64,000 nucleotides of DNA from Nocardioides conyzicola (GTDB lineage: Bacteria > Actinomycetota > Actinomycetes > Propionibacteriales > Nocardioidaceae), in assembly GCF_039543825.1 (NCBI RefSeq), contig NZ_BAABKM010000002.1, positions 1,768,133 through 1,832,132 on the forward strand. The letters are read 5' to 3'. Under the pieces are notes generated by a model, which worked only from the letters and a program-made list of their open reading frames with translations, was not told the DNA's origin and ran no database searches. The position numbers and the translations under genes are program-made. This document shows positions 1,603-16,619 of the stretch, one piece after another; position 1 is the stretch's first letter, and the number at the start of each line of letters is the position of its first letter.

Positions 1603-1606
1603 GGTT

Positions 1607-1662
1607 TTTCATGCACTGTCAACCCTCTCATGCAGATTGACGCTATTTCATGCATCTGTCAG
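1607..1662. repeat. Three operator-like direct repeats between divergent HTH genes
   Basis: Three related units, TTTCATGCACTGTCAA (1607-1622), TCATGCAGATTGACG (1628-1642) and TTTCATGCATCTGTCAG (1646-1662), share TCATGCA followed by a TGTCA or TTGAC block. TCATGCA begins at 1609, 1628 and 1648, spacings of 19 and 20 bp (about two helical turns), so bound proteins would sit on one face. They fill the gap between two related HTH regulators, making them the likely operators. Confidence 0.6.
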
Positions 1663-1671
1663 CCTTTCGCC

Positions 1672-2052: not shown

Positions 2053-2146
2053 CGCCGGACGTGCCCGGCACTGTCGGAGGCGGCCTGTACAAACGGAGGC
2101 GCGTCGACGTCGCAGCGCTCCGACCGGGCGGACGCAGGGAACGGGG

Positions 2147-2587: not shown

Positions 2588-2677
2588 TCTCGAACGCCAG
2601 CGCGCGACCCACCTCGCTTGGCACCATACGAGGTGCGTCGCAGCTCGTGCGTCCGCGACTCGGAGCGAGAGGCCCGC
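2588..2677 (+). promoter_or_regulatory. Conserved 90-nt leader, copy A
   Basis: The 90 nt before the GTG of the secreted protein at 2678 match the 89 nt before its paralogue at 6032 with only about seven differences, including one indel. The indel shifts any shared reading frame, so the conservation is not coding. Possible pairings retained in both copies include GTCGC with GCGAC and CTCG with CGAG. It probably contains the promoter and a structured 5' leader. No known riboswitch class is recognised. Confidence 0.5.
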
Positions 2678-4249
2678 GTGAAGATCCCCACTGCCGTCAT
2701 GGCCCTGCTCCTGATGATCGCCGGACTGCTGGCCGCTGCGCCCGCGGCCACCGCCGACCCCGCGTCCGAGGTCACCGTCACGTGGCCGGAGTACACCCGC
2801 TTCAACCCGACGCTGACGACGTACGACATCAGCACCACCAGCCCCGGTGACCGGCACCTCTTCTACACCTGGGGCCGAGCCGGTGACAGCTATGCGCTCG
2901 GTCAGGCCCCGGTGCCCGACTCGGGGCAGCTCGATCTGGCGCAGGCGCCGGAGGGCGGCGTCCAGGTGCGGATCTGGTCGTGCGCCACCGCACAATGGAC
3001 GGTGGGAAGCTGTCCGCACGTCGCGGACTCGCCGGCCCTCGAGCTGCGGTCCAGGATGGCCGTGACCTCCCATGCCTGGGAGACCGAGGTCGTCGGTGTG
3101 GGTCAGAACCACTTCTTCTTCTCCTACGCGCCACAGCCGCCCGCCGTGGGCTACCCCCAGATCACCTGGGAGCTGCTCGACACCGACAGGACGTCGTTCG
3201 ACACCCCGATCCACGGAAGCCTCACGCCGCAGCAGCTGGAGGAGCGGGGCCAACTGACCGTCGGGATCTCCTACGTGGTCCCCGCCGACATTCCGACGGG
3301 CACGTACTACATGGACGTGCGGGCGAGCCTCGACACCGTCGACTACGGGCACCTTGAAGGTCACATCAACGGCGGCGACGCTGTCTCGGACGGCCTCGCC
3401 GAGATCAGGATCGACACCGATCCGCCGCACCTCACGGTGGACGAGTCGGAGATCCCCGCCACCATCTACCCCGCGGACGACAACTACCTCGACTACGCCG
3501 AGATCCCGGCTTCCACCGACGTCGAGACCGAGGGCACCCTCGAGGTCACCGACGCATCCGGCGCCGTCGTCCACCGCGAGGGCGAGCTCCTCGTCGACGG
3601 GGACGGGTACGGAGACGAGATCAGCTGGACCGGCCGCACCACGACCGGGAAGATCGCCCCCGTTGGCTCCTACACGATGACGCTGACCGTGGCCGACTAC
3701 GCCGGCAACACCGCGACCTGGTCGCGTTCCATCGCGGTCTCCGACAAGAAGCTGCAGTGGACCGTCTTCGAGCAGAACGTATCGGCAGCAGCGTCGCGCA
3801 CGGGCAAGCCGCTCGTGGGGAGGTGCTCGACGCTGGCATCGCCCGCCCGCGGCGGCCGTCGCGGTTCTCTCGGCTACTACTCCCAGAGCCGGTGCGTGGG
3901 CAACGACAAGGCCAACACCGTGGCGACCAACCACGGCATGTACCTCCCGAAGGCGTTCCGGCACCAGTACTCGTGGTCGCAGGTGACCCTGAACGGCGGG
4001 CCGGCGACGAGATCGCGGGACAACTACATCGTGCTGGGCTACGTGGAACCGCGGCGCGGCAGGCTCATCGGAACCAAGGTCCTGCTCCGCGGCAACGGCG
4101 CCCACGACGGCCGTCGCCTGGACAGCAGCGGCATCTGGGACCTCAAGACGGACAAGCCGTACATCATCTGGTCCAACGGGCTCACCGCCGGCAGCCGGTA
4201 CGACGTCCGCAGCTACACGGTCAGGGTCCGCTACCTGGCCCTGCGCTGA
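2678..4249 (+). CDS. Secreted protein with FlgD-like Ig domain, paralogue A
   Basis: A 523-residue secreted protein. The GTG start at 2678 gives a clean signal peptide (VKIPTAVMALLLMIAGLL, cleavage near ATADPAS). The N-terminal third has beta-rich repeats beginning EVTVTWPEYTRFNPT. Around residues 315-365 a FlgD-type Ig module is visible (ISWTGRTTTGKIAPVGSY then TMTLTVADYAGNT). The C-terminal about 150 residues, from TVFEQNV, hold conserved Cys (GRCSTLASPARGG, SQSRC) and end in SGIWDLKTDKPYIIWSNG. The whole length is shared with the protein at 6032-7597. Function is unknown; a cell-surface or extracellular binding role is inferred from the folds. Confidence 0.75.
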   Translation: MKIPTAVMALLLMIAGLLAAAPAATADPASEVTVTWPEYTRFNPTLTTYDISTTSPGDRHLFYTWGRAGDSYALGQAPVPDSGQLDLAQAPEGGVQVRIWSCATAQWTVGSCPHVADSPALELRSRMAVTSHAWETEVVGVGQNHFFFSYAPQPPAVGYPQITWELLDTDRTSFDTPIHGSLTPQQLEERGQLTVGISYVVPADIPTGTYYMDVRASLDTVDYGHLEGHINGGDAVSDGLAEIRIDTDPPHLTVDESEIPATIYPADDNYLDYAEIPASTDVETEGTLEVTDASGAVVHREGELLVDGDGYGDEISWTGRTTTGKIAPVGSYTMTLTVADYAGNTATWSRSIAVSDKKLQWTVFEQNVSAAASRTGKPLVGRCSTLASPARGGRRGSLGYYSQSRCVGNDKANTVATNHGMYLPKAFRHQYSWSQVTLNGGPATRSRDNYIVLGYVEPRRGRLIGTKVLLRGNGAHDGRRLDSSGIWDLKTDKPYIIWSNGLTAGSRYDVRSYTVRVRYLALR

Positions 4250-4289: not shown

Positions 4290-5420
4290 TCAGCGGTGCA
4301 GCCGGGCGGCCTGCCGGGTGAGGTGGTCGCGCTCGGCGGCCGACGTCGCGCGGCTCGCGGCCACGACGTAGAGGTCGTGCGCGAGCTCGCGGTTACCCGC
4401 CTGCTCGTGGAGGTAGGCGCGGACCGCAGCGTGCCGGGGTACGTCGTCCGGCACCTGCTCGACGGCGCGCAGCCCGGCGAGCGGGCCGTCGACGGCGCCC
4501 ACCGCGACCGCCCGGTTGAGGGCGACGACGGGGCTGTCGGTGAGGCGCGCCAGCTCGTCGTACCACTCCAGGATCTGGCTCCAGTCGGTCTCCTCCGCCG
4601 TCCGTGCGTCGGCGTGCAGCGCGGCGATCGCCGCCTGGGCCTGGTACTCCCCGAGCCGGTCGCGCGCCAGCGCCGCCTGGAGCACGACGACGCCCTCGGC
4701 GATCGCGTGCCCGTCCCAGCGGGACCGGTCCTGCTCCGCGAGCGGCACCAGGGAGCCGTCGGCCGTGAAGCGGGCCGCGCGCCGGGCGTGGTGGAGCAGC
4801 ATCAGTGCGAGCAGCCCCCCGACCTCGGGCTCGTCGCTGGACCCGGCGAGCTGGCGGGTCAGCCGGATCGCCTCCGCGGCCAGGTCGACCTCGCCGGAGT
4901 AGCCCTCGTTGAAGATCAGGTAGAGCACCTTCAGCACCGTGCCCAGGTCACCGGGCGCGCCGATCCCGACGTCGGCGACGGCCCGCTTGGCGCGGCTGAT
5001 CCGCTGCGCCATCGTCGCCTCCGGCACCAGGTACGCCTCGGCGATCTGCCGGGTCGTCAGCCCGCCGACCGCGCGCAGCGTGAGCGCGACCGACGACGCC
5101 GGGGTCAGCGACGGGTGGCAGCACAGGAAGAGCAGCAGCAGCGTGTCGTCGTGCTGCTCGGTGGGTCCGGGTGGTGGCGTCTCCACCTGGGCGAGCTCGC
5201 GGCGCTGCCGGGCGCTGTCCGAGCGCTGGGCGTCGAGGAACCGCCGCCAGGCCACGGTGACCAGCCAGCCCTTCGGCTCGGCGGGCGGGTCGTCCGGCCA
5301 GCGGCGTACCGCCTCGACCAGCGCCTCCTGGACGGCGTCCTCGGCCGCCGCGAAGTCGGCTCCGCGGCGGACGAGGACACCCAGGACCTGAGGACCCAGG
5401 TCCCGCAGCAACGTGTCCAT
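4290..5420 (-). CDS. ECF-type RNA polymerase sigma factor with C-terminal extension
   Basis: A 376-residue sigma factor of the COG4941 type. Region 2 is at the N-terminus (DFAAAEDAVQEALVEAVRRW, PKGWLVTVAWRRFLD) and region 4 follows (LTTRQIAEAYLVPEATMAQR, ISRAKR). A long helical C-terminal domain (DUF6596-like; VLYLIFNEGYSGEVDLAAEA) is typical of this subgroup and carries TPR-like helices (SPVVALNRAVAVG). It lies 5 bp downstream of a YCII-domain gene, the standard pairing for this family, so the two form one operon. The ATG at 5420 is chosen for its position just after the YCII stop and for starting directly before region 2. No classical anti-sigma gene is adjacent; YCII proteins are thought to take part in signalling with these sigma factors. 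Confidence 0.85.
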   Translation of the reverse strand: MDTLLRDLGPQVLGVLVRRGADFAAAEDAVQEALVEAVRRWPDDPPAEPKGWLVTVAWRRFLDAQRSDSARQRRELAQVETPPPGPTEQHDDTLLLLFLCCHPSLTPASSVALTLRAVGGLTTRQIAEAYLVPEATMAQRISRAKRAVADVGIGAPGDLGTVLKVLYLIFNEGYSGEVDLAAEAIRLTRQLAGSSDEPEVGGLLALMLLHHARRAARFTADGSLVPLAEQDRSRWDGHAIAEGVVVLQAALARDRLGEYQAQAAIAALHADARTAEETDWSQILEWYDELARLTDSPVVALNRAVAVGAVDGPLAGLRAVEQVPDDVPRHAAVRAYLHEQAGNRELAHDLYVVAASRATSAAERDHLTRQAARLHR

Positions 5421-5425
5421 CGGGG

Positions 5426-5836
5426 TCAGTCCGTGCAGGTCTTCGGCTCCTCGAGGAAGGGCCGGACCTCGATCCACTCCCGCAGCGGCTGGCTGTCCTT
5501 GCCCGGGGCGGAGGAGAGGTACGCCGCGGCCTCGTGCGCCCGCGCCTCGGACTCGACGTCGATGACCATCCAGCCGGCGATCAGGTCCTTGGTCTCCGCG
5601 AACGGCCCGTCGGTCACCGGCGGACGGCCGGGCCCGTCGTACCGCACGAACGTCCCCTCGGGCGACAGCGCCTGCCCGTCGACGTACTCGCCGCGCTCCC
5701 GCAGGTCGTCGGCGACCCTGCCCATGAAGGCGATGTGGTCCGACACCTCCTCGGGCGTCCAGTCGCTCATCGGGACGGTGCCGTAGTCGGTCCGCTCGGG
5801 TCCGCCGCGGTAGTGCTTCAGCAGCAGGTACTTCAT
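5426..5836 (-). CDS. YCII-domain protein, partner of the adjacent sigma factor
   Basis: A 136-residue YciI/YCII-fold protein (dimeric alpha-beta ferredoxin-like). The start MKYLLLKHYRGG and the block DGPFAETKDLIAGWMVIDV, followed by EIRPF-like EVRPFLEEP, are diagnostic for the subgroup found with COG4941 sigma factors. A Shine-Dalgarno (GAAGGAG) precedes the ATG. It is the first gene of a two-gene operon with the sigma factor at 4290-5420. Its exact job is not established in the family; substrate sensing or regulation of the sigma factor is usually suggested. Confidence 0.85.
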   Translation of the reverse strand: MKYLLLKHYRGGPERTDYGTVPMSDWTPEEVSDHIAFMGRVADDLRERGEYVDGQALSPEGTFVRYDGPGRPPVTDGPFAETKDLIAGWMVIDVESEARAHEAAAYLSSAPGKDSQPLREWIEVRPFLEEPKTCTD

Positions 5837-5942
5837 CGTGGTGCTCCTTCGGTGTCCGAGGCGGCCATTGTGGCCGCCGTCGAACCCAGGACGGAGCCGT
5901 CACACCGTTCTCGACATCACCCTCCGAGATCTCCGGAGGAAC

Positions 5943-6031: not shown

Positions 6032-7597
6032 GTGAAGATCCCCACCACCGTCATGGCCCTGATGATGCTCGTGGCCGGCCTGCTCACCGCGGCGCCCGCG
6101 GTCGCCGACCCCGCCTCCGAGGTCACCGTCGTGTGGCCCGAGGTCACCCGCTTCAACCCGACGACGTACTCGTACGACGCCGTGGTCTCCAACAGCGGCG
6201 CCGGGCACCTGTTCTCCACGTGGGGGTACGACAGCCAGATGCCCTGGCTGACCGTCGCCACGCCCGTCCCCGAGTCCGGGCACGTCACCCTGGGCGAGGA
6301 CCAGGAGGGCATCGGGCGTCTGCTGGTCTGGTCGTGCACGACGGAGCAGTGGAACGCCTTCGACGGCACCTGCACACAAGCAGCGTCGTCCCCGGACCTC
6401 CAGGCCTGGTCACACATCGCCGTCGTGAACATGGACAACGCGGACGTCCGGGGGCCCGGCCTCAACCACGCGAGGATCTACTACGGGCCGCAGCCTCCGA
6501 CCGTCGACACGCCCGAGGCGACCTGGGAGCTGCTGGACGGCGACCGGCTCCCGTTCGCCGTACCGGTGACCGGGGAGCTGGGACCAGCGGACCTGGTCGT
6601 CAGCGACTTCGACGGGCTCACGACGATCCCGTTCACCGTCCCGGCCGGCCTACCCAACGGCCACTACTACCTCGACGTGCGGATGACGGTCGACAGCGCC
6701 GACTTCGGCCCGCTCCAGGGAAGCATGGGCGCCGCGGACGGACGGCTCGTCGACGTCATCGTCGACAGCGTGGCCCCCCAGCTGAAGGTGACGAAGCCCC
6801 CGACGCAGGTCTACCCGGTCCGTGACAGCTACCTCGACGCCGTCGTGCTCAGGGCCTCCACCGACGAGCAGGCCACCGGCACGCTCGATGTCACCGACAG
6901 CGCCGGCAAGCGGGTCTTCCACACCGGCAACCTGCGGCTCGCCAACGCGGACTGGTCGGGGGACTCCGTCTACTGGAACGGTCGCACCTCCGGCGGCGCC
7001 CTCGTCCCCGAGGGGACCTACACGATGGTGCTCACCGCGACCGACGCGGCCGGCAACACGGACACCTGGTCGGGGCGGATCGCCGTCTCGCACAAGAAGG
7101 TGCAGTGGACCGTCTTCAAGCGCACCGTCACGGCAGCCGCGTCCCGCTCGGGCAAGCCGTTCGTCGGCCGCTGCTCGACCCTGGCGTCCCCGGCCCGCGG
7201 CGGACCGCGCGGCTCCCTGGGCTTCTACTCGCAGACCAAGTGCGCGGGCGACAGCAGGAGCGGCACGGTCGCGACGAACCACGGCATGTACATCCCGAAG
7301 GCGTTCGACGACCGCTACGCCTGGGCGAGGGTCACCCTCAACGGAGGGCCCGCGACCGCCTCGGCGGACAACTACCTGGTGCTGGGTTACCTGAGCCCGC
7401 GCAACGGCCGGCTCGTCAACACCCGGATCCTGGGGAAGGGCCACCGAGCGCACCCCGGCCTCAAGGTCGACGTCGGGAGCATCTGGGACCGCAAGAAGGA
7501 CAAGCCCTACATCCTCTGGTCCAACGGCCTCACCGCGGGCAGCAGGTACGACGTCCGCAGCTACACCGTCGAGGTTCGCTACCGCATGCTGCGCTGA
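6032..7597 (+). CDS. Secreted protein with FlgD-like Ig domain, paralogue B
   Basis: A 521-residue secreted protein, full-length paralogue of the one at 2678-4249. Signal peptide: VKIPTTVMALMMLVAGLL, cleavage near AVADPAS. It has the same order: beta-rich N-terminal region (EVTVVWPEVTRFNPT), FlgD-like Ig module (VYWNGRTSGGALVPEGTY then TMVLTATDAAGNT), and the conserved C-terminal region with GRCSTLASPARGG, TKCAG and SIWDRKKDKPYILWSNG. The last about 230 residues are much more alike between the paralogues than the middle. A strong terminator follows the stop. Function unknown. The pair flanks the sigma/YCII operon, which suggests a tandem duplication around or into which the operon lies. Confidence 0.75.
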   Translation: MKIPTTVMALMMLVAGLLTAAPAVADPASEVTVVWPEVTRFNPTTYSYDAVVSNSGAGHLFSTWGYDSQMPWLTVATPVPESGHVTLGEDQEGIGRLLVWSCTTEQWNAFDGTCTQAASSPDLQAWSHIAVVNMDNADVRGPGLNHARIYYGPQPPTVDTPEATWELLDGDRLPFAVPVTGELGPADLVVSDFDGLTTIPFTVPAGLPNGHYYLDVRMTVDSADFGPLQGSMGAADGRLVDVIVDSVAPQLKVTKPPTQVYPVRDSYLDAVVLRASTDEQATGTLDVTDSAGKRVFHTGNLRLANADWSGDSVYWNGRTSGGALVPEGTYTMVLTATDAAGNTDTWSGRIAVSHKKVQWTVFKRTVTAAASRSGKPFVGRCSTLASPARGGPRGSLGFYSQTKCAGDSRSGTVATNHGMYIPKAFDDRYAWARVTLNGGPATASADNYLVLGYLSPRNGRLVNTRILGKGHRAHPGLKVDVGSIWDRKKDKPYILWSNGLTAGSRYDVRSYTVEVRYRMLR

Positions 7598-7601
7598 AAT
7601 G

Positions 7602-7635
7602 GCATCAGGCCCCGGATCTCTCCGGGGCCTGATGC
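7602..7635 (+). terminator. Strong hairpin terminator after paralogue B
   Basis: GCATCAGGCCCCGGA and TCCGGGGCCTGATGC form a perfect 15-bp stem with a TCTC loop, 4 bp after the stop codon. There is no long U-tract, as is common in high-GC Actinobacteria. Confidence 0.85.
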
Positions 7636-7636
7636 T

Positions 7637-7652
7637 CACGTGCGCGAGGGGG
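7637..7652. repeat. Distal copy of tRNA-Leu 3' end (putative att site)
   Basis: CACGTGCGCGAGGGGG is identical to 12454-12469, where it spans the 3' end of tRNA-Leu. The copy has the same orientation and lies on the side where an element integrated into the tRNA 3' end would leave it. It begins 1 bp after the terminator hairpin. No tRNA body accompanies it, so it is a partial duplicate. Confidence 0.65.
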
Positions 7653-7890
7653 AGTCAGCGCGCGCAAAAGCGGAGATCTCCCGTTTCAGGGGGTTAAGGG
7701 CGTGGCGCGGGCCCAGTTCTGCACGGTGCCGCGCCCAGGCGTCACACCCGTGCACTCCCGCGCCGGACGGCCCTGAGCGGTCGCCGGGCGACCACGTCCT
7801 CGAGGTGTCGCTGTCGGTCTGCGCCTCTACGCTTGGTGTCGTGTACACGGCCGGCTTCCACTACAACCGGATCTCCAGGAGTGCGACGCG

Positions 7891-9069
7891 ATGAAGGTGT
7901 TCATCTCATCCGTGACGCATCTGCTCAGCGACGAGCGGGCCGCGCTGCCTCCGTTCCTGCGGCTTCTCCATCACGAGGGTCTGCGCTTCGAGGACTTTGA
8001 GGCGCAGAACCGGTCGAGCAGGGAGGCGTGCCTCGCCGGCGTCGAGGAAGCTGACGTGTACGTGCTCCTGCTGGGCCCGAAGTACGGCACCCCGCTCCCT
8101 GACACCGGCCGGGCGCCGACGGCGGAGGAGTTCACCCGGGCAAGGCAGCGGGGCATCCCGATCCTGGTGTTCAACAAGGTCGTGGACGAGCCCGACGAAC
8201 CCGAGCAGCGTGCGTTCAAGGCCGAGGTCGGTCACTACGTCAACGGACGCCTGTGGCGGTCGTTCATGGACCCGCTCACCTGCAACCAGGCGGTCGGGGA
8301 GGCGTTGGAGCAGGTCAGCGTGTCCCAGGGTCCCCTCCGGAAGGAGAACCCCACGGGGGCGATATCGGTCCCGTGGATCTCCGAGGTGTCGGCCGACGAC
8401 GGGTCGGGCCAGACGCTCGCGAACTGGTCGCAACGCCGCGGCGGCGGTCTCGTGCCCTCCTCGGTGTACGCCCCGGTCCTCGAGCTGCACGTCGTCCCCG
8501 ACGGCACCGTGCCCTACCTCGGGGCGGCCGACATGGCACGACGAGCACAGTCGCTCGCGGCAGACGTGCGGACGTCGAACTTCGTGGGCAACGCAGACCC
8601 GCTCGACGTGAACTCCTCCGACGACCTGGCCTGGGCAGTGCGACCACCACACAGCAACCGAACCTTCGGCAACGAGGTCACCGTCGAGGAGTTCCGTGGC
8701 GCGCTCGCGACCCGTGCCGGTGCCGCCGGGGCCTTCCGGGCGCTAGACACCGACACGATGGGAGCGCTGGTCGACCAGGCGTCTCTGCAAGAGGCCCTGG
8801 CGCTTCTCTTCGGGCTGGCATCTCCGCACGTCGTCGAGACGGAGAACGTCGCGGTCGCGGTCGGCCTCGTCAATGCCGACCGCGTGTGGGAGGGCGACCC
8901 CCGACGCATGGGAGGGCGGAACTCCGGCCACATGAGGACCACCCTGGGGGCCGCCGTCCGGGTAGGCGGCGACTTCGTGGTCGCGAAGGACAGGCTGTCG
9001 GGTGGGTTCGGCGACCTGGGCGCCGACCTCGCTCACACGCTCCTGCAACGGCTCCGCGACCTGAGGTAG
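7891..9069 (+). CDS. DUF4062-domain protein
   Basis: A 392-residue protein. The first about 90 residues are a DUF4062 domain, recognised by MKVFISSVTHLLSDERAA at the start, then FEDFEAQNRSSREACLAGVE and DVYVLLLGPKYGTP. DUF4062 has a TIR/Rossmann-like nucleotide-binding look and is common in signalling and anti-phage proteins, where it is joined to variable effector domains. The remaining 250 residues have no recognised motif; they contain FRALDTDTMGALVDQ and a closing segment with GRNSGHMRTTLGAAVRVGGD. An AGGAG lies upstream of the ATG. It is the first gene of the putative island, transcribed alone. A defence role is only inferred from domain and context. Confidence 0.75.
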   Translation: MKVFISSVTHLLSDERAALPPFLRLLHHEGLRFEDFEAQNRSSREACLAGVEEADVYVLLLGPKYGTPLPDTGRAPTAEEFTRARQRGIPILVFNKVVDEPDEPEQRAFKAEVGHYVNGRLWRSFMDPLTCNQAVGEALEQVSVSQGPLRKENPTGAISVPWISEVSADDGSGQTLANWSQRRGGGLVPSSVYAPVLELHVVPDGTVPYLGAADMARRAQSLAADVRTSNFVGNADPLDVNSSDDLAWAVRPPHSNRTFGNEVTVEEFRGALATRAGAAGAFRALDTDTMGALVDQASLQEALALLFGLASPHVVETENVAVAVGLVNADRVWEGDPRRMGGRNSGHMRTTLGAAVRVGGDFVVAKDRLSGGFGDLGADLAHTLLQRLRDLR

Positions 9070-9124
9070 CGCATCAACAGCCTTGCCGCCGTCCCCTAAC
9101 CAGGGTCGAGGCGGCGCATGCCAG

Positions 9125-9628
9125 TCAAAGTCCCTCGCAGAGCACGTCGATGATCGCCGACAGGTCTTCCCTGCCGTGCCGGCCAAGTCGGCCCGGAACT
9201 AGCGGCAGGTCCAGAGTCGTTCCGTCGCGGAACACGATCTGCGCCCGCTCGGTGTCCCACTCGCGGGTTTCGATGTAGCGATGCTTGCGCGTCGCCAGGT
9301 TCGTGAGCTCCACAGCGACGATGTCGGTTCGCCTCCGTGCCCAGACGCTGGCACGGTCCGGTTCTTCGTCCGGGTCGTATGCGTCCCAGTCCGGCGCATC
9401 CTTCGAGGCGAACCCGACGACGGCCCGGGATGCTGTCAGCCACAGAGCACGCCAGTCGGTCACCCTGTTCTCCACGTGGACCTGCACGAGGTGGGCTTCG
9501 ACGGGCGCGCCGTTCGCGAGACGCAACATCGCATCCCAGATGACCGCAGGCGCGAGCAGGTTCTTGTCCAGGTCGGCCAGTCTCGCCTGGGCGGCCTGGA
9601 GGTCTTCCGCGGTGAAGCTCTTCGTCAT
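9125..9628 (-). CDS. Hypothetical protein
   Basis: A 167-residue protein that I do not recognise. It begins with a helical segment (MTKSFTAEDLQAAQARLADL), followed by beta-rich sequence (VEAHLVQVHVENRVTDWRAL, TDIVAVELTNLATRK, AQIVFRDGTTLDLPLVPG) that looks like a PH-like or short beta-barrel fold. There is no signal peptide or membrane helix. It converges with the DUF4062 gene, 55 bp apart, and sits within the putative island. Confidence 0.6.
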   Translation of the reverse strand: MTKSFTAEDLQAAQARLADLDKNLLAPAVIWDAMLRLANGAPVEAHLVQVHVENRVTDWRALWLTASRAVVGFASKDAPDWDAYDPDEEPDRASVWARRRTDIVAVELTNLATRKHRYIETREWDTERAQIVFRDGTTLDLPLVPGRLGRHGREDLSAIIDVLCEGL

Positions 9629-9782
9629 GCAGTCACGCTAGCGATGGAGCGCCCACCACGGTCGAGATCGTTGCCGTCATGACCGGCACCGAACACCCCC
9701 TCGCCGCCGGCGGTGGTGACCCGATACGCCCCCAAGTCACCGAACGGAGTCGACAACGACTATGACTACCGAGAACGAAGCA

Positions 9783-9810
9783 AGGCCCGCCGACAGATGT
9801 CGGCGGGCCT
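9783..9810 (-). terminator. Hairpin terminator after the YegP-like gene
   Basis: AGGCCCGCCGACA and TGTCGGCGGGCCT form a 12 to 13-bp stem with a tiny loop, 17 bp beyond the stop of the minus-strand gene at 9828. A T-containing run (TTGCTTCGTT) follows in that direction. Confidence 0.75.
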
Positions 9811-9827
9811 CGCCGCTGTCGGTCGAA

Positions 9828-10142
9828 CTACAAGGTGGCGCTGCCGGCGTTGTCCCGGACGTTGTCGGCCGCCGTCTGCGCAGCCGACTTGCTGGAGAAC
9901 GACTCGCCGGACGACGCGACCTTGTCCGACGACTTCCACGCTCGCCACCGGTACTTGTCGCCGTCGTCGAGGTACACCTCGTACCGGGCGGCCTTAGCGC
10001 CAGCCTTGAACGCGGCCGCCGCACGCTGAGCGTTCGACGTGGACGCGAACGACTCACCCGCCCACGCGACCTCTCGGTCGTTGTCGGCGTACAACTTCCA
10101 GGTGGAGCGCCCACCTGCGTCATTTTCTACAGAGAACCTCAC
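9828..10142 (-). CDS. YegP-like protein with two DUF1508 repeats
   Basis: A 104-residue protein made of two DUF1508 (UPF0339/YegP) repeats: residues about 2-48 (FSVENDAGGRSTWKLYADND then GESFASTSNAQRAAAAFK) and about 53-101 (YEVYLDDGDKYRWRAWKSSD then GESFSSKSAAQTAADNV). Each repeat has the family's YRWRLKAANGE-like strand and the SES/GESF turn. YegP-like proteins are small, and their biochemical role is not established. The GTG start at 10142 has a good Shine-Dalgarno (AAGGGAGAGAGCC just upstream). It lies within the putative island, apparently as a single gene with its own terminator. Confidence 0.85.
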   Translation of the reverse strand: MRFSVENDAGGRSTWKLYADNDREVAWAGESFASTSNAQRAAAAFKAGAKAARYEVYLDDGDKYRWRAWKSSDKVASSGESFSSKSAAQTAADNVRDNAGSATL

Positions 10143-10220
10143 GGCTCTCTCCCTTCTGTTCCGGATCTGATGGAGAGGTGGGTGTCGGCGACATCTCGGG
10201 ACGTGTAGCCGACACCCAGA

Positions 10221-10246
10221 GCCGGCGGACCAGGCGGCCCGCCGGC
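10221..10246 (-). terminator. Possible terminator after the 47-residue protein
   Basis: GCCGGCGG and CCGCCGGC can form an 8-bp stem with a 10-nt loop just beyond the stop of the small gene at 10249. The loop is GC-rich and there is no U-tract, so this is a weak call. Confidence 0.35.
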
Positions 10247-10248
10247 CC

Positions 10249-10392
10249 TTACTTCCCGCGACGCTTAGACGGCGTCTGGGACAGGGCAGAACCAGCTGCC
10301 GTCTTCGCAGCCTTCGGCGACTTCGAGCTGTTCAGCGTCTTGCTTGCCGCCTTCGCGGCCTGCGCGCTGGTCTGTCGCGTGTTCTTGCTCAT
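10249..10392 (-). CDS. Small basic protein (47 residues)
   Basis: An Ala/Lys/Ser-rich 47-residue protein: MSKNTRQTSAQAAKAASKTL at the start, AAKTAAGSALSQ in the middle and a basic tail SKRRGK. A strong Shine-Dalgarno (GGAGG) sits 8 nt upstream of the ATG at 10392, which decides this start over a longer frame. Similar small proteins with an AAGSALSQ ending occur in accessory regions of many bacteria; their function is unknown. The charge suggests nucleic acid binding, which is inference. Confidence 0.7.
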   Translation of the reverse strand: MSKNTRQTSAQAAKAASKTLNSSKSPKAAKTAAGSALSQTPSKRRGK

Positions 10393-10705
10393 CCACACCA
10401 CCTCCTTCCTCGTTCGCTTGCGCGGAGCACGAGGAGGTGGTGGTATCCGGAGTGCATCACCCCGCATAGAGACCTTCACCTGTCTCGTGCGCCTCAGCGC
10501 CCGGCCGGCCAGCCGGGCGTTTTGGCTTTTCCGCTCTTCTTTTCGCGGACCCACTGTTGCGGACCAATGTCAGTGAACACCTCTCGGACCCCGCTCCCGT
10601 GAAGCGCTACTGGCGTGTCTCGCCAATTTCCGCGTCAATTCGCGCTTAAACACGCCGATGTAGTTCGGCGTTTCTGCGCCTATCGACCGCACTCTTCCCG
10701 GAGAA
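10393..10705. other. Intergenic stretch without a recognised gene
   Basis: About 310 bp between two divergent island genes. The first 15 bp hold the Shine-Dalgarno of the 47-residue protein. The remainder has locally lower GC (for example around 10500-10545 and 10620-10700), as expected for two promoter regions. No RNA gene, hairpin of note or coding sequence was recognised. Confidence 0.5.
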
Positions 10706-11212
10706 TTGTCAGCACTTGAAGCGAAGTGGGCGAACGTCACTGACCTTCTTCGCGCGTACAACCGGACGGAAGCGGACATGGCTGAGATCGACGAAGACAC
10801 CGAGTTCGAGATCGCCGAGTACTGCGCACGGCTGTCGTGCAAGAAGCTCATCGTTCAGACACCAGGGCGGGGACGACGACGTGAGTACTGCTCCGAGACG
10901 TGCCGGCGAGGCGCGGATCGTGAGTACAAGCGTGCGAAGAACCTCGTCGAGCACTTCGAACGAGTGCTCCGCAAGACCCGCTACGAGGTCGCCGCGTACG
11001 GGCGCAACGGGGAGGACGAGATGCTCGAGACGGTGGACGCGGCTGCGCACCGACAAGCAACGGCGCGGTCAGCAGTCAGCCGGGCGCAGGGCGTGTTGCA
11101 GTACACCAGCGAGGTGGAGGACCGGTTCCGCGACGAGCTACGCATGCTGGTCGAGGCAGTAGAGCCACTCACGTCGGACCCGGGTGCCGACGGGGTTGCC
11201 CGGAGCGCCTGA
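10706..11212 (+). CDS. Cys-rich putative zinc-binding protein
   Basis: 168 residues from a TTG start at 10706 (GGAG lies just upstream); an ATG at 10778 would give 144 residues. A short treble-clef-like cluster is visible at about residues 39-67: YCARLSCKK, then RRREYCSETCRRGADREYKR. The arrangement C-x4-C...C-x3-C followed by basic residues resembles the CGNR-type zinc finger of some transcription factors, although the CGNR tetrad itself is absent. The remainder is a long charged helix (KNLVEHFERVLRKTRYEV, then RATARSAVSRAQGVLQYTSE-like sequence), probably coiled coil. DNA binding is a plausible inference; no neighbour clarifies its job. Confidence 0.6.
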   Translation: MSALEAKWANVTDLLRAYNRTEADMAEIDEDTEFEIAEYCARLSCKKLIVQTPGRGRRREYCSETCRRGADREYKRAKNLVEHFERVLRKTRYEVAAYGRNGEDEMLETVDAAAHRQATARSAVSRAQGVLQYTSEVEDRFRDELRMLVEAVEPLTSDPGADGVARSA

Positions 11213-11300
11213 CAGCCTGGACATGGGGCGCTTCCTGTGGCCCCACTCCCCCGAAGCAAGACACGTGGAGACCCACGACTCCGCGGTTGGTCCTGATCGG

Positions 11301-11319
11301 ACGGGTCCCAAAGACCCGT
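11301..11319. terminator. Small hairpin in the gap after the Cys-rich gene
   Basis: ACGGGTC and GACCCGT form a 7-bp stem with loop CCAAA, followed by TGCTGG. It is 90 bp past the stop at 11212. The rest of 11213-11435 shows no gene. Confidence 0.3.
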
Positions 11320-11435
11320 TGCTGGCCCGTTCACGTCGACCCAAACGCGTTCCGCAGCCGGAAGTGACGGGGCCGTTCTTGCAGCAGTCTCGTTGGTGGC
11401 AATGCGCTGACCATGCCAAGCCATCCCGACACACC

Positions 11436-11464
11436 AGGACAGGTTCGTCATACTGACCTACAAT
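11436..11464 (+). promoter_or_regulatory. Likely housekeeping promoter of the RHH-YfbU gene
   Basis: AGGACA (11436-11441) and TACAAT (11459-11464) are spaced by 17 bp, matching a sigma-70 type promoter at four and five of six positions. Direct repeats start 7 bp after the -10 box, over the expected transcription start. Confidence 0.5.
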
Positions 11465-11470
11465 GTGTGT

Positions 11471-11500
11471 ACTGTACGACACGCCGAACACTGTACGACA
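11471..11500. repeat. Two 11-bp direct repeats, probable autoregulatory operator
   Basis: ACTGTACGACA occurs at 11471-11481 and 11490-11500, 19 bp apart. They lie between the promoter and the Shine-Dalgarno of a gene whose product starts with a ribbon-helix-helix DNA-binding domain. RHH proteins typically bind such tandem sites, so autoregulation is likely. Confidence 0.6.
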
Positions 11501-11514
11501 GCACGGAGGTCAGA

Positions 11515-12240
11515 ATGCCCACGATCACGATCCGCGTCAGCGATGACGTTCGCGACGACATAGAGGACCTGGCGACCGCACGGGGCATGACGGTCAGCGA
11601 GCTGCTGCGCACGCAGATCGACGCGCTGCGCGGACGCGGCGAAGAAACGGACGGTCCCACCACCCCACTCGCGCTCGGGGACGTCCAGCGCCTCATCCTG
11701 AGCCAGCAGCACGAGATCCTCGCCGCGCTTCGCGCTGATGACCCGGGCGACGTCGAGTACCACCAGAAGCGGATGGCGGCACTCCAGGGGGGCTACACGC
11801 TCGAGTACTCCGACGAGTTCGCGTCGATCTCGCCGGAGTTGTCCCGCGAGGACTGTCGACTCGTGATGGACATCCTCGACATGTTCCGACTCACCAGCCA
11901 CGCCCTCACCCAGCTCAGCGACGACGAACGAGTCGCTCTGGGCGAGGACGTCCGCGAGACGCTCGAGTTCAACGGCTTCGACCTCAATGACACGCTCGAG
12001 GGACACATGCTCGAGTACGTCCGGTACTTGGTGAGCAACCGACGGTGGGCTGAGGTCGAGCCGCGGCTCAGCGACATGTACGACGGAGGGAACTCCCACT
12101 GCCCGATGCTCCCGATGTACAAGCGGATGCTGACAGTCCACCAGCAGATCCGCGCACAGCGGCGAGCCGACCGCGGCGCTTCTCGAAGCGTCTACGAGTA
12201 CGACGCCGACGACCTGCGCGCCATCGCCGCTGCCGGTTAG
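11515..12240 (+). CDS. RHH DNA-binding domain fused to a YfbU domain
   Basis: A 241-residue fusion. Residues 1-45 form a ribbon-helix-helix domain (MPTITIRVSDDVRDDIEDLA, then MTVSELLRTQIDAL). Residues about 60-215 match YfbU: LGDVQRLILSQQHEIL, GGYTLEYSDEF, DCRLVMDILDMFRLTSHAL, GFDLNDTLEGHMLEYVRYLV and MLPMYKRMLTVHQQI. E. coli YfbU alone is about 164 residues and its function is not settled. The ATG at 11515 has a perfect GGAGGT 4 bp upstream, which decides against a longer frame. The RHH addition and the paired repeats over its promoter point to an autoregulated DNA-binding protein. A terminator follows at 12392. Confidence 0.85.
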   Translation: MPTITIRVSDDVRDDIEDLATARGMTVSELLRTQIDALRGRGEETDGPTTPLALGDVQRLILSQQHEILAALRADDPGDVEYHQKRMAALQGGYTLEYSDEFASISPELSREDCRLVMDILDMFRLTSHALTQLSDDERVALGEDVRETLEFNGFDLNDTLEGHMLEYVRYLVSNRRWAEVEPRLSDMYDGGNSHCPMLPMYKRMLTVHQQIRAQRRADRGASRSVYEYDADDLRAIAAAG

Positions 12241-12391
12241 GCCATACAGCCTCAACGGCCTCCACGAGCTGTTGCAGACGAGGTGCGGTGTCGCTGTCTC
12301 GTCCCGATGGACGCCGGATCGGGTTGGTGACACGCACACGGCGAAACTGCCTGGTCCGAACTATCGCGTCGGGACTTCGGCCGGACACAGT

Positions 12392-12420
12392 AAGGGCCAG
12401 GTCTCATAGACCTGGCCCTT
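12392..12420 (+). terminator. Hairpin terminator near the island's right end
   Basis: AAGGGCCAGGTCT and AGACCTGGCCCTT form a perfect 13-bp stem with a CAT loop, followed by CTCTGT. It lies 150 bp past the RHH-YfbU stop; no gene is seen in between. Confidence 0.75.
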
Positions 12421-12453
12421 CTCTGTACAACCAAACGGGAGAAATCCCGCTTA

Positions 12454-12469
12454 CACGTGCGCGAGGGGG
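12454..12469. repeat. Proximal copy of the 16-bp repeat, within the tRNA-Leu 3' end
   Basis: CACGTGCGCGAGGGGG here covers the discriminator, acceptor strand and part of the T stem of tRNA-Leu plus 4 bp outside the gene. The identical copy is at 7637-7652. tRNA 3' ends are classic integration sites, so this is the probable attachment site of a 4.8-kb island. Confidence 0.65.
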
Positions 12470-12540
12470 GATTTGAACCCCCACGCCCTTTCGGACACTG
12501 GCACCTGAAGCCAGCGCGTCTGCCGTTCCGCCACTCGCGC
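12458..12540 (-). tRNA. tRNA-Leu (anticodon CAG)
   Basis: 83 nt without encoded CCA. The acceptor GCGCGAG pairs with CTCGCGC. The anticodon stem CTGGC/GCCAG encloses loop TTCAGGT, giving anticodon CAG for CUG codons. A long variable arm (TGTCC-GAAA-GGGCG), typical of class II tRNAs, and T loop TTCAAAT are visible. Its position next to fhaA matches the leuT position in mycobacterial origin regions. Confidence 0.95.
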
Positions 12541-12681
12541 GTGAAGCGGGCCAAGGTTATCCCAGCGCTCGGGTTTGCCCCAAACCGGGGCGAGGGCATA
12601 CCTCGTCGGGATCGTCGACCCCGATACGATCGTCGGAGCCCGGCCGGGCCGGACTGGTGACAGCGAAGGAAGGGGGGCGAC

Positions 12682-13389
12682 GTGGGTGGACTCCAGCGTC
12701 TGGAGAACAGGCTCGAGCAGATGATCTCGGGCGCGTTCGCCCGGGCCTTCCGCTCGGCGGTGCAGCCCGTCGAGATCGCCGCCGCGCTCCAGCGCGAGTG
12801 CGACAACAACGCCCAGATCCTCTCCCGGGACCGTCGGCTGGTCCCGAACGACTTCCACGTGGAGCTCTCGGGGACCGACCTGGACCGGCTGGCGCCGTAC
12901 GACAGCGCGCTCGCCGACGAGCTCGTCCGACAGCTGCGCGACCACGCCGACGAGCAGAGCTACGTCTTCCCGGGGCCGGTGAGCATCGCGTTCGACCCGG
13001 CCGAGGACCTCACCACCGGCCGGTTCCGGATCCGCAGCCGCGCGCAGGCGAAGGTCACCAGCGACGCCACCGCCACCCAGGTCGGCCGCGCGCGGGCGTT
13101 CCTCGAGGTCAACGGCACCCGGCACCCGCTGCAGCCCCCCGGGCTGGTCGTCGGCCGCGGCACCGAGGCGGACCTGCGCATCAACGACCCGGGCGTGAGC
13201 CGGCGGCACATCGAGTTCACCGTCACCGGTGGCGGCGAGCGCGGGATCGCGCTCGAGGTCCACGACCTCGGCTCGACCAACGGCATGCTCGTCGATGGCC
13301 ACCGGATCACCCACACCGGGCTGCGCGACGGCTCCGAGGTGCGCATCGGCACCACCACGCTCGTCGTCCGTGTCCTCGAGGAGCGGTGA
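12682..13389 (+). CDS. fhaA: FhaA, FHA-domain protein with N-terminal DUF3662
   Basis: 235 residues from GTG 12682. The N-terminal DUF3662 domain is recognised by GGLQRLENRLEQMISGAFAR and VEIAAALQREC. The C-terminal FHA domain (about residues 145-235) has VVGRGTEADLRI, SRRHIEF and LGSTNGMLVDG, including the Arg, Ser and Asn that contact phosphothreonine. FhaA recognises phosphorylated partners of the PknA/PknB kinases encoded downstream; in mycobacteria it binds the phosphorylated pseudokinase attached to MurJ, a homologue of which is at 57902-59773. It is the first gene of the seven-gene growth cluster. The linker is shorter than in mycobacterial FhaA (over 500 residues). Confidence 0.92.
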   Translation: MGGLQRLENRLEQMISGAFARAFRSAVQPVEIAAALQRECDNNAQILSRDRRLVPNDFHVELSGTDLDRLAPYDSALADELVRQLRDHADEQSYVFPGPVSIAFDPAEDLTTGRFRIRSRAQAKVTSDATATQVGRARAFLEVNGTRHPLQPPGLVVGRGTEADLRINDPGVSRRHIEFTVTGGGERGIALEVHDLGSTNGMLVDGHRITHTGLRDGSEVRIGTTTLVVRVLEER

Positions 13390-13402
13390 GGATGGTCGCC
13401 CC

Positions 13403-13879
13403 ATGTCTGAGCTGACGCTGTTCCTGATCCGGATCGCCTATCTCGCGATCCTCTGGATCTTCGTGCTGTCCGCCATCTCGGTGATCCGCTCGGACATGTT
13501 CGGCGCACGCGTGCCGGAGGCGGCGCGCGGCGGCGGCGGCAAGGCCCCGAAGCCGGCCAAGCAGCCCAAGCCCGGCAAGCGGCGCACCGTCCCCACCCAC
13601 GCGATCGTCACCGAGGGCTCCAACGTCGGCGAGCGCGCCGAGCTCTCGCAGGGCCCGGTGCTGATCGGGCGCGGGAGCGACGCCGCCATCCGCCTCGACG
13701 ACGACTACGTCTCGACGCGGCACGCCCGGATCGCCGCGTCCGGCGACCAGTGGTTCGTCGAGGACCTCGGCTCGACCAACGGCACCTTCGTCGGCACCGT
13801 CCGGATCACCCAGCCGACCACGATCACCATGGGCACCCAGGTACGGGTCGGCAAGACGATCATCGAGCTCAGGAAGTAG
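13403..13879 (+). CDS. fhaB: FhaB/FipA, membrane-anchored FHA protein
   Basis: 158 residues from ATG 13403. One N-terminal membrane helix (LFLIRIAYLAILWIFVLSAI) is followed by a short linker rich in Lys and Pro (KAPKPAKQPKPGKRR) and a C-terminal FHA domain (about 75-158: VLIGRGSDAAIRLDDDYVST, RHARI, LGSTNGTF). In mycobacteria FipA links the Ser/Thr kinases to the divisome. It lies 13 bp after fhaA and 6 bp before the phosphatase gene, in one operon. Confidence 0.92.
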   Translation: MSELTLFLIRIAYLAILWIFVLSAISVIRSDMFGARVPEAARGGGGKAPKPAKQPKPGKRRTVPTHAIVTEGSNVGERAELSQGPVLIGRGSDAAIRLDDDYVSTRHARIAASGDQWFVEDLGSTNGTFVGTVRITQPTTITMGTQVRVGKTIIELRK

Positions 13880-13885
13880 CCGGGG

Positions 13886-15190
13886 ATGTCCGACCAGCCG
13901 CCTGAGGCAGCGCTGCCACGGCTGCGCCTCGACTACGGCGCCGTGTCCGACGTCGGCCGGGTCCGTCGCGACAACCAGGACTCCGGGTACGCCGGGCCGT
14001 GGCTCCTCGCCGTCTGTGACGGCGTCGGCGGCGCCGCCCGCGGCGACATCGCCTCGGCCACCGCCATCACCCAGCTGCGGCGCCTCGACGAGCCCCCCGG
14101 CAGCGACTCCGCCGAGGAGCTGCTCGGACGCGTGGCAGGTGCCATCCACCGGGCCCACGACCGGCTCGTCGAGCTCGTCGACGAGGACCCCGCCCTCAGC
14201 GGCACCAGCACGACCGCCACCGTGCTCGCCTTCGACGGCACCCGCCTCGGCATCGGGCACGTGGGCGACAGCCGGGCCTACCTCTACCGCGACGGCGCGA
14301 TCCGCCAGCTGACCGTCGACCACACCTTCGTGCAGACCCTCATCGACGAGGGCCGGATCACGGAGGAGGAGGCGCGGGTCCACCCGCACCGCAACCTGAT
14401 CATGCGCGCGATCGACGCGGTCAGCGACAGCGAGCCCGACCTCTTCGTGCTCGACATCGGGCCCGGCGACCGGCTGCTGGTCTGCAGCGACGGCGCCTGC
14501 GGCGTCCTGACGGACGGTCGGATGGCCGACATCCTCTCCTCCGGCAGCCCGGAGTACGCCGCGGTCGAGCTGGTCCGCGCCAGCCTCGAGGCCGGCAGCA
14601 GCGACAACGTGACCTGCGTGGTGGCCGACGTCCTCGCGGCCGACGACGCGGCCCCCGTGGCCGAGGCGCTGGTCGTCGGCGCCGCTGCCGAGCGCCGCCT
14701 GCAGCGCGGCCGCACCGGCGGCCTCTTCCGCGGGCACCGCTCGGGCGACACCGGTGAGCTCGACCCGGTGCCGGCCGACCTGCCCGAGGGCGCGCCGTAC
14801 GACGCCATCGACTCCGACCCGGAGGCGGTGCGCTACGCGCCCCGGCCGCCGCGCCGCTACGCCTGGGCCAAGCGCCTCTTCGCCGCGGCCGTCGCCGTCG
14901 GCATCGCCTGGGTCGGGCTGGCCGCCCTGTGGTCGTGGTCCCAGCACCAGTACTACGTCGGGGAGCAGGACGGCGCGGTCGTCATCTTCCGCGGCGTCAA
15001 CGCCTCCGTCGGTGGCTTCGACCTCTCCGAGCCCTACCAGACCACCGACGTCGAGCTCGACCGCCTGTCCGACTTCGACGCGGGCAAGGTGCGCGACGGG
15101 ATCGACGCGACCGACCTCGCGGACGCCCAGAAGGCGGTCCAGCGCCTCGCCAGCAACCAGCAGCCCGCCACCACGGCGACGGACGGCTGA
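13886..15190 (+). CDS. pstP: PstP, PP2C-type Ser/Thr phosphatase
   Basis: 434 residues. The N-terminal PP2C domain (about 10-250) has the metal-binding and catalytic blocks VRRDNQDS, AVCDGVGGAARGD, TSTTATVLAF, GHVGDSRAYLYRDG, VCSDGACG and GSSDNVTCVV. One membrane helix follows at about residues 333-353 (LFAAAVAVGIAWVGLAALW), with an external C-terminal domain (YYVGEQDGAVVIFRGVNASV). PstP dephosphorylates PknA and PknB and their substrates, counterbalancing the kinases in the same operon. Length and layout agree with mycobacterial PstP (about 510 residues), with a shorter tail. Confidence 0.93.
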   Translation: MSDQPPEAALPRLRLDYGAVSDVGRVRRDNQDSGYAGPWLLAVCDGVGGAARGDIASATAITQLRRLDEPPGSDSAEELLGRVAGAIHRAHDRLVELVDEDPALSGTSTTATVLAFDGTRLGIGHVGDSRAYLYRDGAIRQLTVDHTFVQTLIDEGRITEEEARVHPHRNLIMRAIDAVSDSEPDLFVLDIGPGDRLLVCSDGACGVLTDGRMADILSSGSPEYAAVELVRASLEAGSSDNVTCVVADVLAADDAAPVAEALVVGAAAERRLQRGRTGGLFRGHRSGDTGELDPVPADLPEGAPYDAIDSDPEAVRYAPRPPRRYAWAKRLFAAAVAVGIAWVGLAALWSWSQHQYYVGEQDGAVVIFRGVNASVGGFDLSEPYQTTDVELDRLSDFDAGKVRDGIDATDLADAQKAVQRLASNQQPATTATDG

Positions 15191-15191
15191 G

Positions 15192-16619
15192 ATGGCTCAG
15201 ACCACGAGGAACCAGTCCTCGACCCTCATGGGGTTCGTGCACCGCCGACGCCGCGGTGCCGAGCTCTTCCTGCTGGTCCTGGCGCTCGCCGTCGGCATCG
15301 GTGCGTACGCCGCGGTCGGCATCGGCGTCCAGGGTGAGGTCCCGGCCGACCTCCTCGGGTACGGCGGCTGGCTGGCCGCCCTCGTCATCGGCGCGCACGT
15401 GGTGATCCGCCTGGTCGCGCCGTACGCCGACCCCGTGCTGCTGCCGGTGGTCGCGGCGCTCAACGGGCTCGGCCTCGCGGTCATCCACCGCATCGACCTC
15501 GCCAAGGAGGCCGCCGGCGACGCCGACGGGTTCGCCCGGCAGCAGCTCATCTGGATGACGCTCGGCGTCATCCTCTTCGTGGTCAGCCTCGTGGCGATCC
15601 GCGACCACCGCGTGCTCCAGCGCTTCACCTACACCAGCGGCCTCGCCGCCATCGCGCTCCTGCTGATGCCGCTGTTGCCGGGCATCGGCCGCACCATCAA
15701 CGGCGCCCGGATCTGGATCCACCTCGGCCCGTTCAGCTTCCAGCCCGGTGAGCTCGCCAAGGTGCTGCTGGTGATCGCGTTCGCCGGCTACCTGGTGCTG
15801 CACCGCGACGCCCTGGCCCTCGCCGGGCGCCGCGTGCTCTTCGTCGACCTGCCGCGCGGCCGCGACCTCGGACCGATCCTCGCGATGTGGCTGGTCAGCC
15901 TCGGCATCCTGGTCTTCCAGCACGACCTCGGCTCGAGCCTGCTCTTCTTCGGCCTCTTCCTGATCATGCTCTACGTCTCCACCGAACGGCCCGGTTGGCT
16001 GGTCGTCGGCGGGCTGATGTTCGTCGGCGGCGCGACGCTCGCCTACTTCCTCTTCGGGCACGTCCGGATCCGCTTCGACATCTGGCAGCACCCGTTCGAC
16101 TTCTACGGCCCGGGCACCAGCGACAAGGCCTTCCAGCCGGTCGAGGCCAGGTTCGGCATGGGCTGGGGTGGCCTGATCGGGCGCGGCTTCGGCGACGGTG
16201 ACCCCAACCGGGTGCCCTACGCCAACTCCGACTTCATCCTCTCCTCGATCGGTGAGGAGCTCGGCCTGACCGCCGTCATGGCGGTGCTGATGATTTACGG
16301 CCTGATCGTCGAGCGCGCGCTGCGCACCGCGCTGATCTGCCGCGACGCCTTCGGCAAGCTGGTCGCCACCGGTCTCGGCAGCGCGATCGCGCTGCAGGTC
16401 TTCGTCGTCGTCGGCGGCGTCACCGGGCTCATCCCGCTCACCGGTCTCACCACGCCGTTCCTCTCGTACGGCGGTTCCTCCCTCGTCGCCAACTGGGTGA
16501 TCATCGCGTTGCTGCTCCGCATCTCCGACCAGGCCAGGCGCCCGCTGCCGTCGATCTCCGACGACACCACCGCCATCAGCACCGACGACACCCAGGTGGT
16601 CAAGGTGGTGAACGCGTGA
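15192..16619 (+). CDS. rodA: RodA/FtsW-type SEDS peptidoglycan polymerase
   Basis: 475 residues with about 10 or more membrane helices. SEDS family landmarks are visible: ARIWIHLGPFSFQPGELAKV, WQHPFDFYGPG, FGMGWGGLIGRGFGDG, FILSSIGEELGLTA and PLTGLTTPFLSYGGSS. RodA polymerises lipid II glycan strands, working with a class B penicillin-binding protein; the partner gene pbpA overlaps its stop by 4 bp. The ATG at 15192 is 1 bp after the pstP stop, which decides the start over longer readings. The N-terminal extension (MAQTTRNQSSTLMGFVHRRR) is cytoplasmic. Confidence 0.93.
   Translation: MAQTTRNQSSTLMGFVHRRRRGAELFLLVLALAVGIGAYAAVGIGVQGEVPADLLGYGGWLAALVIGAHVVIRLVAPYADPVLLPVVAALNGLGLAVIHRIDLAKEAAGDADGFARQQLIWMTLGVILFVVSLVAIRDHRVLQRFTYTSGLAAIALLLMPLLPGIGRTINGARIWIHLGPFSFQPGELAKVLLVIAFAGYLVLHRDALALAGRRVLFVDLPRGRDLGPILAMWLVSLGILVFQHDLGSSLLFFGLFLIMLYVSTERPGWLVVGGLMFVGGATLAYFLFGHVRIRFDIWQHPFDFYGPGTSDKAFQPVEARFGMGWGGLIGRGFGDGDPNRVPYANSDFILSSIGEELGLTAVMAVLMIYGLIVERALRTALICRDAFGKLVATGLGSAIALQVFVVVGGVTGLIPLTGLTTPFLSYGGSSLVANWVIIALLLRISDQARRPLPSISDDTTAISTDDTQVVKVVNA

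Follow-up and report, generated by a model that had tools for sequence, protein, structure and literature searches.

How a block of 4.8 kb came to lie beside a tRNA-Leu(CAG) gene of Nocardioides conyzicola, with a copy of the tRNA 3′ end at each border and no recognised integrase, is the question raised by this locus. We examined it in a window of 64 kb (the whole stretch of DNA analysed). Coordinates are positions in this window, negative numbers lie upstream of its start, and G- and L-numbers denote the genomes sampled and the loci or stretches compared, respectively. The block is a real tRNA island that was precisely inserted. It very probably belongs to the cis-mobilizable element (CIME) type, i.e. 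cargo flanked by attachment (att) sites without integration or transfer genes, stranded at a much-used tRNA-Leu(CAG) site.

Precise insertion at the 3′ end of tRNA-Leu(CAG)

The sequence CACGTGCGCGAGGGGG was found at 7637-7652 (distal att copy) and at 12454-12469 (tRNA-side att copy), both on the plus strand and identical at 16 of 16 bp. The tRNA-Leu(CAG) gene is located at 12457-12540 on the minus strand and is intact according to both ARAGORN and Rfam. Because the tRNA ends at 12457, the right repeat copy consists of the tRNA 3′ end and 3 bp outside it. The left copy repeats it directly and is oriented as it would be after integration at a tRNA 3′ end. The first-pass annotation of this DNA had described the repeat in this way, and the sequence match and ARAGORN bear it out. 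It had also named recurrence of the 16-mer throughout the genome as an argument against integration; the 4.96-Mb genome contains only the two copies, both forward, with none in reverse orientation (control: 0).

To find related loci, named genomes were scanned for FhaA, the gene beside the tRNA. This gave 97 relatives, of which the best 80 loci were kept; all but two are titled Nocardioides, the others being one Nocardioidaceae and one Actinomycetota bin, and the loci extend up to 10 kb on the integrase side of the tRNA, some less. An empty site with a single repeat beside tRNA-Leu and with joined flanks, as the annotation had proposed to look for, was present in Nocardioides sp. URHA0020 (L124). 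Window positions 7596-7652 aligned to 9720-9776 of this locus (94.7% identity) and 12454-16000 to 9761-13322. The two window flanks overlap in L124 at 9761-9776, which is exactly the 16 bp, and flanks joined in this way are the signature of an insertion between two 16-bp core copies. The alignment also shows that the native 3′ flank of the tRNA gene, a terminator hairpin that abuts tRNA-Leu in URHA0020, is now at the left junction of the window (7597-7636), cut off from its tRNA by the island.

The same place was free of the block in close relatives; its presence there had been named as a further counter-argument. The four closest named relatives (L123-L126) carry no island gene, in L125 within the approximately 4 kb left of the tRNA that its locus covers. 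Root1257, the closest by FhaA (97%), lacks island genes at the tRNA, and its 20.7-kb locus holds no further repeat at up to two mismatches. None was seen in the loci of N. soli (only ~4 kb left of the tRNA) and YIM 152315 either.

The repeat-bounded block annotated as 7637-12469 is real, and the empty-site alignment confines the inserted part proper to 7653-12453 (4801 bp). It marks the GC minimum of the window (66.2%); among 296 island-sized sliding windows, only the overlapping 7801-12601 was lower. On its tRNA side, a terminator-like hairpin was read from the sequence at 12392-12425 (84% identity over 45 bp to the Root1257 flank), and this terminator type is common at that position. Flanked on either side by a direct repeat of the tRNA 3′ end, and with a one-copy empty site in a relative, the block has the features of a tRNA island. 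The element would have carried a 16-bp core identical to that at the tRNA-Leu(CAG) 3′ end, and site-specific recombination between the two would have inserted 7653-12453. The tRNA would have been restored by the element's own copy, leaving the displaced native terminator and core at 7597-7652, as comparison with the empty site indicates.

Absence of recognised integration and transfer genes

The island encodes six proteins, namely a DUF4062 protein, a hypothetical protein, a YegP-like protein, a small basic protein, a Cys-rich protein and a ribbon-helix-helix (RHH)-YfbU protein. Compared with Pfam, PHROGs and NCBIfam, none of the six was recognised as an integrase, excisionase or relaxase. No relaxase or type IV secretion system family was over cut-off in Pfam or NCBIfam and none was named in PHROGs; the RHH part of the YfbU protein gave NikA-like and MobA hits, below cut-off only. 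We also built a hidden Markov model (HMM) from integrases beside tRNA-Leu in relatives and used positive controls. It detected G003, G119, G209, G115 and pieces in G061 and found nothing in G032, G300 or G285. Nothing in the 64-kb window matched it at E≤1, and the annotated absence of an integrase from the island was upheld.

Three PF00589 proteins were found in the whole genome. One is over the NCBIfam cut-off for XerD and another has XerC as its best match, just under cut-off. These two Xer proteins scored 48-55 bits against the integrase HMM, the seed sequences of which score ~170-800 because it was built from them (a 189-aa fragment scored lowest). The third protein (443 aa, ~790 kb away) gave no match. 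This survey indicates that no relative of the tRNA-Leu integrases is available in trans in the genome; it was confined to PF00589-type proteins, with no search for serine integrases or recombinases or for relaxases elsewhere in the genome. The annotation had left the choice between a decayed element and one mobilised in trans. Both alternatives stand, and the lack of a tRNA-Leu-type (PF00589) integrase favours a stranded rather than a currently mobile island.

A much-used integration site in Nocardioides

Islands with the same termini, which the first-pass annotation had suggested searching for, were found in other species. In G003, 14.9 kb lie between two repeat copies. This DNA holds YegP and Cys genes, an xis-like gene of the HTH_17 family and, adjoining the tRNA, an integrase (PF00589, E 1e-25). 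Its relaxase (891 aa) is 72% identical to that of G099, which passes the NCBIfam MobF cut-off. G119 carries a 45.5-kb element with its own integrase (PF00589, E 6.4e-21), the left end of which lies beside the same SigJ-YCII-terminator flank as in the window. This element has homologues of YfbU (50% aa, 67.9% DNA identity) and of the XRE/ImmA-like genes at window positions 1390-2548 (71-74% DNA); DUF4062, YegP and Cys were not found in it (tblastn, E≤1e-3). Altogether, homologues of four of the six island genes are located at tRNA-Leu elsewhere: YegP and Cys in G003, G022 and G085, YfbU in G119, and DUF4062 and Cys in G032.

Among the 80 named loci, an integrase frame lies within 150 bp of the tRNA in five, unbroken in four (L128, L139, L147 and L162) and broken in one (L129); in two others (L161 and L173) an integrase is 2.5-3 kb away. 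At least two same-strand copies of the 15-bp core within 50 kb were present in 8 of 215 genus genomes (G000, G003, G032, G061, G114, G115, G209 and G216). The 15-mer occurs at all in only 107 of the 215, because the bases outside the tRNA vary; with the reversed pattern as control, five matches were seen, all of them single. Another genus of the family sample contributed three more cases (G285, G291 and G300); in G291, no tRNA-Leu was found within the 15 kb examined. Tandem att-bounded units are located at tRNA-Leu(CAG) in G032, G209, G115 and G300 (L033/L034/L113/L269, L260-L263 and L283-L284 for the four together), and most of them have in common a distal arm with CTGAGCGTGAAACC-like sequence. 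The three units of G032 gave no match to the integrase HMM; they carry two Cys genes, a DUF4062 gene, a DUF2188 gene (PF09954) and, by eye, insertion sequence- and sugar-use-like genes. The tRNA is also occupied in N. marmorisolisilvae (L202/G285), by a 4.1-kb island that has an exact repeat of 15 bp and gave no integrase match (HMM on the region, Pfam on five open reading frames).

The tRNA-Leu(CAG) gene upstream of fhaA is a much-used Nocardioides site at which empty, int-bearing, tandem and integrase-less states exist side by side. With these states in one environmental actinobacterial genus, the decay-and-accretion route of mobile islands can be tested there. No description of this tRNA-Leu site was found in the literature searched on CIMEs and Nocardioides tRNA-Leu islands, a search that is not proof of absence in print.

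A small DUF2188 protein adjoins a Cys gene in G032 (L113 10400-10666), where YegP stands elsewhere, and a DUF2188 gene is also present in the N. marmorisolisilvae island (L202 9346-9588). In G291, a 1.3-kb unit between two core copies (L285 9791-11107) has a HEPN gene (PF05168) after a gene that is nucleotidyltransferase-like by eye; the two are possibly a toxin-antitoxin pair.

Nature of the island

CIMEs are a known class of element, which PMC5704250 defines as having attachment repeats at each end but no genes for integration or transfer. The N. conyzicola island has kept attL and attR at a tRNA 3′ end, without integration genes or recognised transfer genes, and relatives have int-bearing and tandem units at the same site. 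It does not have the integrase of its own that marks an integrative and mobilizable element (IME), nor was a relaxase recognised in Pfam or NCBIfam. As to descent by deletion from an integrative and conjugative element (ICE) or IME, it has genes in common with int-bearing elements and a left arm different from theirs. We conclude that the island, an added case of its class, is very probably cargo of the CIME type. It would have lost the missing genes from an ancestor, and its exit would be possible only if an element with a compatible integrase arrived at or next to it and mobilized it in cis.

Several observations weigh against this view. Counted from the last tRNA base, the distal copy agrees with the tRNA over 13 bp here (16 with the three outer bases), compared with 22-23 bp in six copies with a G003-type arm (G003, G216, G114, G032, G209 and G115) and 26 bp in G119. 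After GAGGGGG, the window sequence resembles neither the G003-type nor the G119 arm. As the left arm is unlike both int-bearing families at this tRNA, descent by deletion from either type is not established. The module of YegP and Cys genes is inverted with respect to G003, G022 and G085, and the hypothetical protein has no homologue in any element found at tRNA-Leu.

The closest parallels differ in detail. From the CIMEs described, the island departs in its left arm and in that no accretion partner was seen in the genome. The G003 element shares the tRNA, the start of the core, the YegP and Cys genes and a noncoding segment described below with the island, but it has 23 bp of tRNA in its repeat, another distal arm and the module in opposite orientation, and it possesses int, an xis-like gene and a relaxase. 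The G119 element shares the tRNA, the native left flank, YfbU and XRE/ImmA-like genes, but has 26 bp of tRNA in its repeat and its own integrase and is ~10 times larger. Two candidate family marks lost weight. Exact-repeat length proved a weak one, as in G061, which has a G003-type arm, a G run shorter by one base also ends the agreement at 13 bp; this makes the third family considered below slightly less likely. The other mark, a second palindrome beside the tRNA, was dropped, since relatives that have no mobile genes there carry it too.

Other origins of the locus are conceivable. The repeat could have been left by deletion of most of a larger G119-type ICE, the remaining genes being its inner part, and the YfbU and XRE/ImmA-like homologues in the 45.5-kb element would fit. 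However, the G119 distal arm is absent at 7653, the end of the deletion would have had to hit the core exactly, and tblastn (E≤1e-3) gave no counterpart of the DUF4062, YegP and Cys genes in that element; we consider such a deletion unlikely. Slightly less probable still is a non-autonomous island that is still mobile, a member of a third family with its own arms that would be moved in trans by an integrase absent from the genome. The N. marmorisolisilvae island would be another member: its 15-bp exact repeat lies at the same tRNA without an integrase match, and, as in the N. conyzicola island, a palindrome begins 17 nt inside its distal GAGGGGG. This palindrome is not diagnostic, however, since such palindromes occurred in 221 of 916 control 32-mers. 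The tRNA-side palindrome also exists in relatives in which no mobile genes were seen there (L131, L133, L155, G018 and G028), the distal copy of L202 can by eye also be read as a longer core with small changes, and the family would comprise two members only, with different genes.

A chance similarity or a local duplication of the tRNA 3′ end, without any site-specific integration, could be invoked because the core is only 16 bp long. If up to two mismatches are allowed, a shuffled window is expected to hold 0.48 matches, and two were reached in 7 of 100 shuffles. Two inexact matches in one window are therefore not rare, and it is the exactness of the repeat and the empty site that carry the weight. 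The URHA0020 site refutes this explanation in substance; the native terminator beside the left copy and the sites occupied in other species also speak against it, and it is extremely improbable.

Gene content of the island

The annotated gene content was confirmed, with revised starts for three genes. The DUF4062 protein (7891-9069, plus strand; 392 aa) matches PF13271 (E 1.8e-17). It is followed on the minus strand by the hypothetical protein (9125-9628; 167 aa), which has no Pfam, PHROGs or NCBIfam family, the YegP-like (DUF1508) small protein (9828-10142; 104 aa; PF07411, E 1.3e-6) and the basic protein of ~48 aa (10249-10395; phrog_5079, E 2e-12 over residues 53-99 of a longer open reading frame). 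The Cys-rich protein (10706-11212) and the RHH-YfbU protein (11515-12240; 241 aa; PF03887, E 2.6e-36; NCBIfam YfbU 90.9 bits, cut-off 90) are encoded on the plus strand. The N-terminal RHH of the latter gave hits below the Pfam cut-off only, and like the hypothetical protein, the basic and Cys-rich proteins have no Pfam family above cut-off. Reading of the sequence and alignment placed the probable starts at 10395 for the basic protein, 11515 for RHH-YfbU and 10778 for the Cys-rich protein.

In 196 genus genomes, including its own, homologues at E≤0.001 were present in 10 genomes for YfbU, 16 for the Cys-rich protein, 5 for the hypothetical protein and 5 for DUF4062 (two of them weak), a scattered distribution that would suit mobile cargo. 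Scans of viral contigs confirmed no relative for Cys, YfbU or YegP and yielded one for DUF4062. The Cys-rich protein was found in two Gordonia plasmid records (~30% identity) and in no phages; its weak, sub-threshold matches were to Cas11a in PADLOC (E 0.005) and to an HNH family in PHROG (E 0.02).

In a recent preprint (PMC13174449), DUF4062 is reported as a TIR-like NADase with antiphage activity. The island protein has the N-terminal DUF4062 domain in common with Swarozyc, the NADase described there, which is further characterised by a catalytic Glu and an auxiliary domain that senses portals. By family membership the island protein may be a TIR-like NADase, and the cargo is probably in part defensive. 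The AlphaFold model of the protein (mean predicted local distance difference test score 31) was unusable. In the viral-contig relative (L272 4352-9176, on a virus-classed contig), the DUF4062 gene, 59% identical, directly follows genes for an AAA ATPase (PF00004) and a subtilase (PF00082), a set that is possibly a defence operon; Glu79 and Glu80 of the island protein are also present in this copy.

A conserved noncoding segment between the YegP and Cys genes

At 10399-10555 (plus strand), between the divergent YegP and Cys genes, lies a noncoding segment that is conserved and predicted to fold into a branched structure. It is a concrete candidate for an origin of transfer (oriT) or a small RNA in a stranded island. 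In eight other genomes, YegP homologues (64-68% identity) adjoin the Cys-rich gene. Also in eight other genomes, ~50-60 bp from 10481 onwards are 81-90% identical, compared with 71-77% for YegP coding DNA and mostly 69-75% for Cys coding DNA (short stretches up to 81%).

An alignment of nine sequences gave a branched structure with 92.9% of cells paired and modest covariation. The covariation score was reached by 1 of 500 shuffles and by no slid version. The RNAalifold covariation term was slightly unfavourable (+0.39), and 5 of 39 pairs had changed on both sides, which 68 of 500 shuffles also reached. Rfam gave no family at gathering score in the segment. Taken together, these predictions lend modest support to an RNA reading.

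The covariance model (CM) made from this alignment matched the segment with 94 bits. In the genus it matched 11 of 196 genomes, 9 of them its own seeds, and across the order 5 of 245, all seeds. The new matches were in G032, ~270 bp upstream of the Cys match, and in G166, where no Cys or YegP homologue was found in the 20 kb examined. Weak CM matches were also seen over tRNA-Leu itself in L172 (9644-9800, E 0.003) and L138 (9618-9741, E 0.06); these could be due to chance or to a shared cloverleaf-like shape.

In G003, G180 and G099, a MobF-type relaxase gene (71-72% identical to that of G003) ends 0.56-0.74 kb before the module. In G198, the integrase neighbouring the module adjoins tRNA-Ala, so the module is not tied to tRNA-Leu. 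In G022 and G085 it lies beside tRNA-Leu, with no integrase or relaxase match in the stretch examined. By homology, the Cys-rich/noncoding/YegP module is common to int- and relaxase-bearing Nocardioides elements. As a speculation to which we give little credence, the segment and the Cys-rich protein might form the mobilization handle of a MobF element family in Nocardioides, either as an oriT with its accessory protein or as a control RNA. The integrase-less islands at tRNA-Leu would keep this handle for carriage by the machinery of a visiting element. The island would then be a tRNA-anchored satellite needing both integrase and relaxase from others.

Flanking regions

The annotation had regarded the flanks as syntenic core. 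In URHA0020, the right flank was aligned over 12454-16000, and on the left the SigJ-YCII genes (4298-5916) align to L124 8076-9700. The left flank is not core throughout, since its parts from about -975 to 4298 and at 6.0-7.6 kb are missing there in URHA0020. Two secreted paralogues with weak immunoglobulin-like matches (2618-4249 and 6053-7597; 52-55% identical) flank SigJ-YCII in the window and are not at that place in URHA0020 or Root1257. An XRE/ImmA-like block (584-2549, within the region from -975 to 4298) lies left of SigJ-YCII here and between YCII and tRNA-Leu in Root1257, on the same strand, which indicates that the block order was altered between close relatives.

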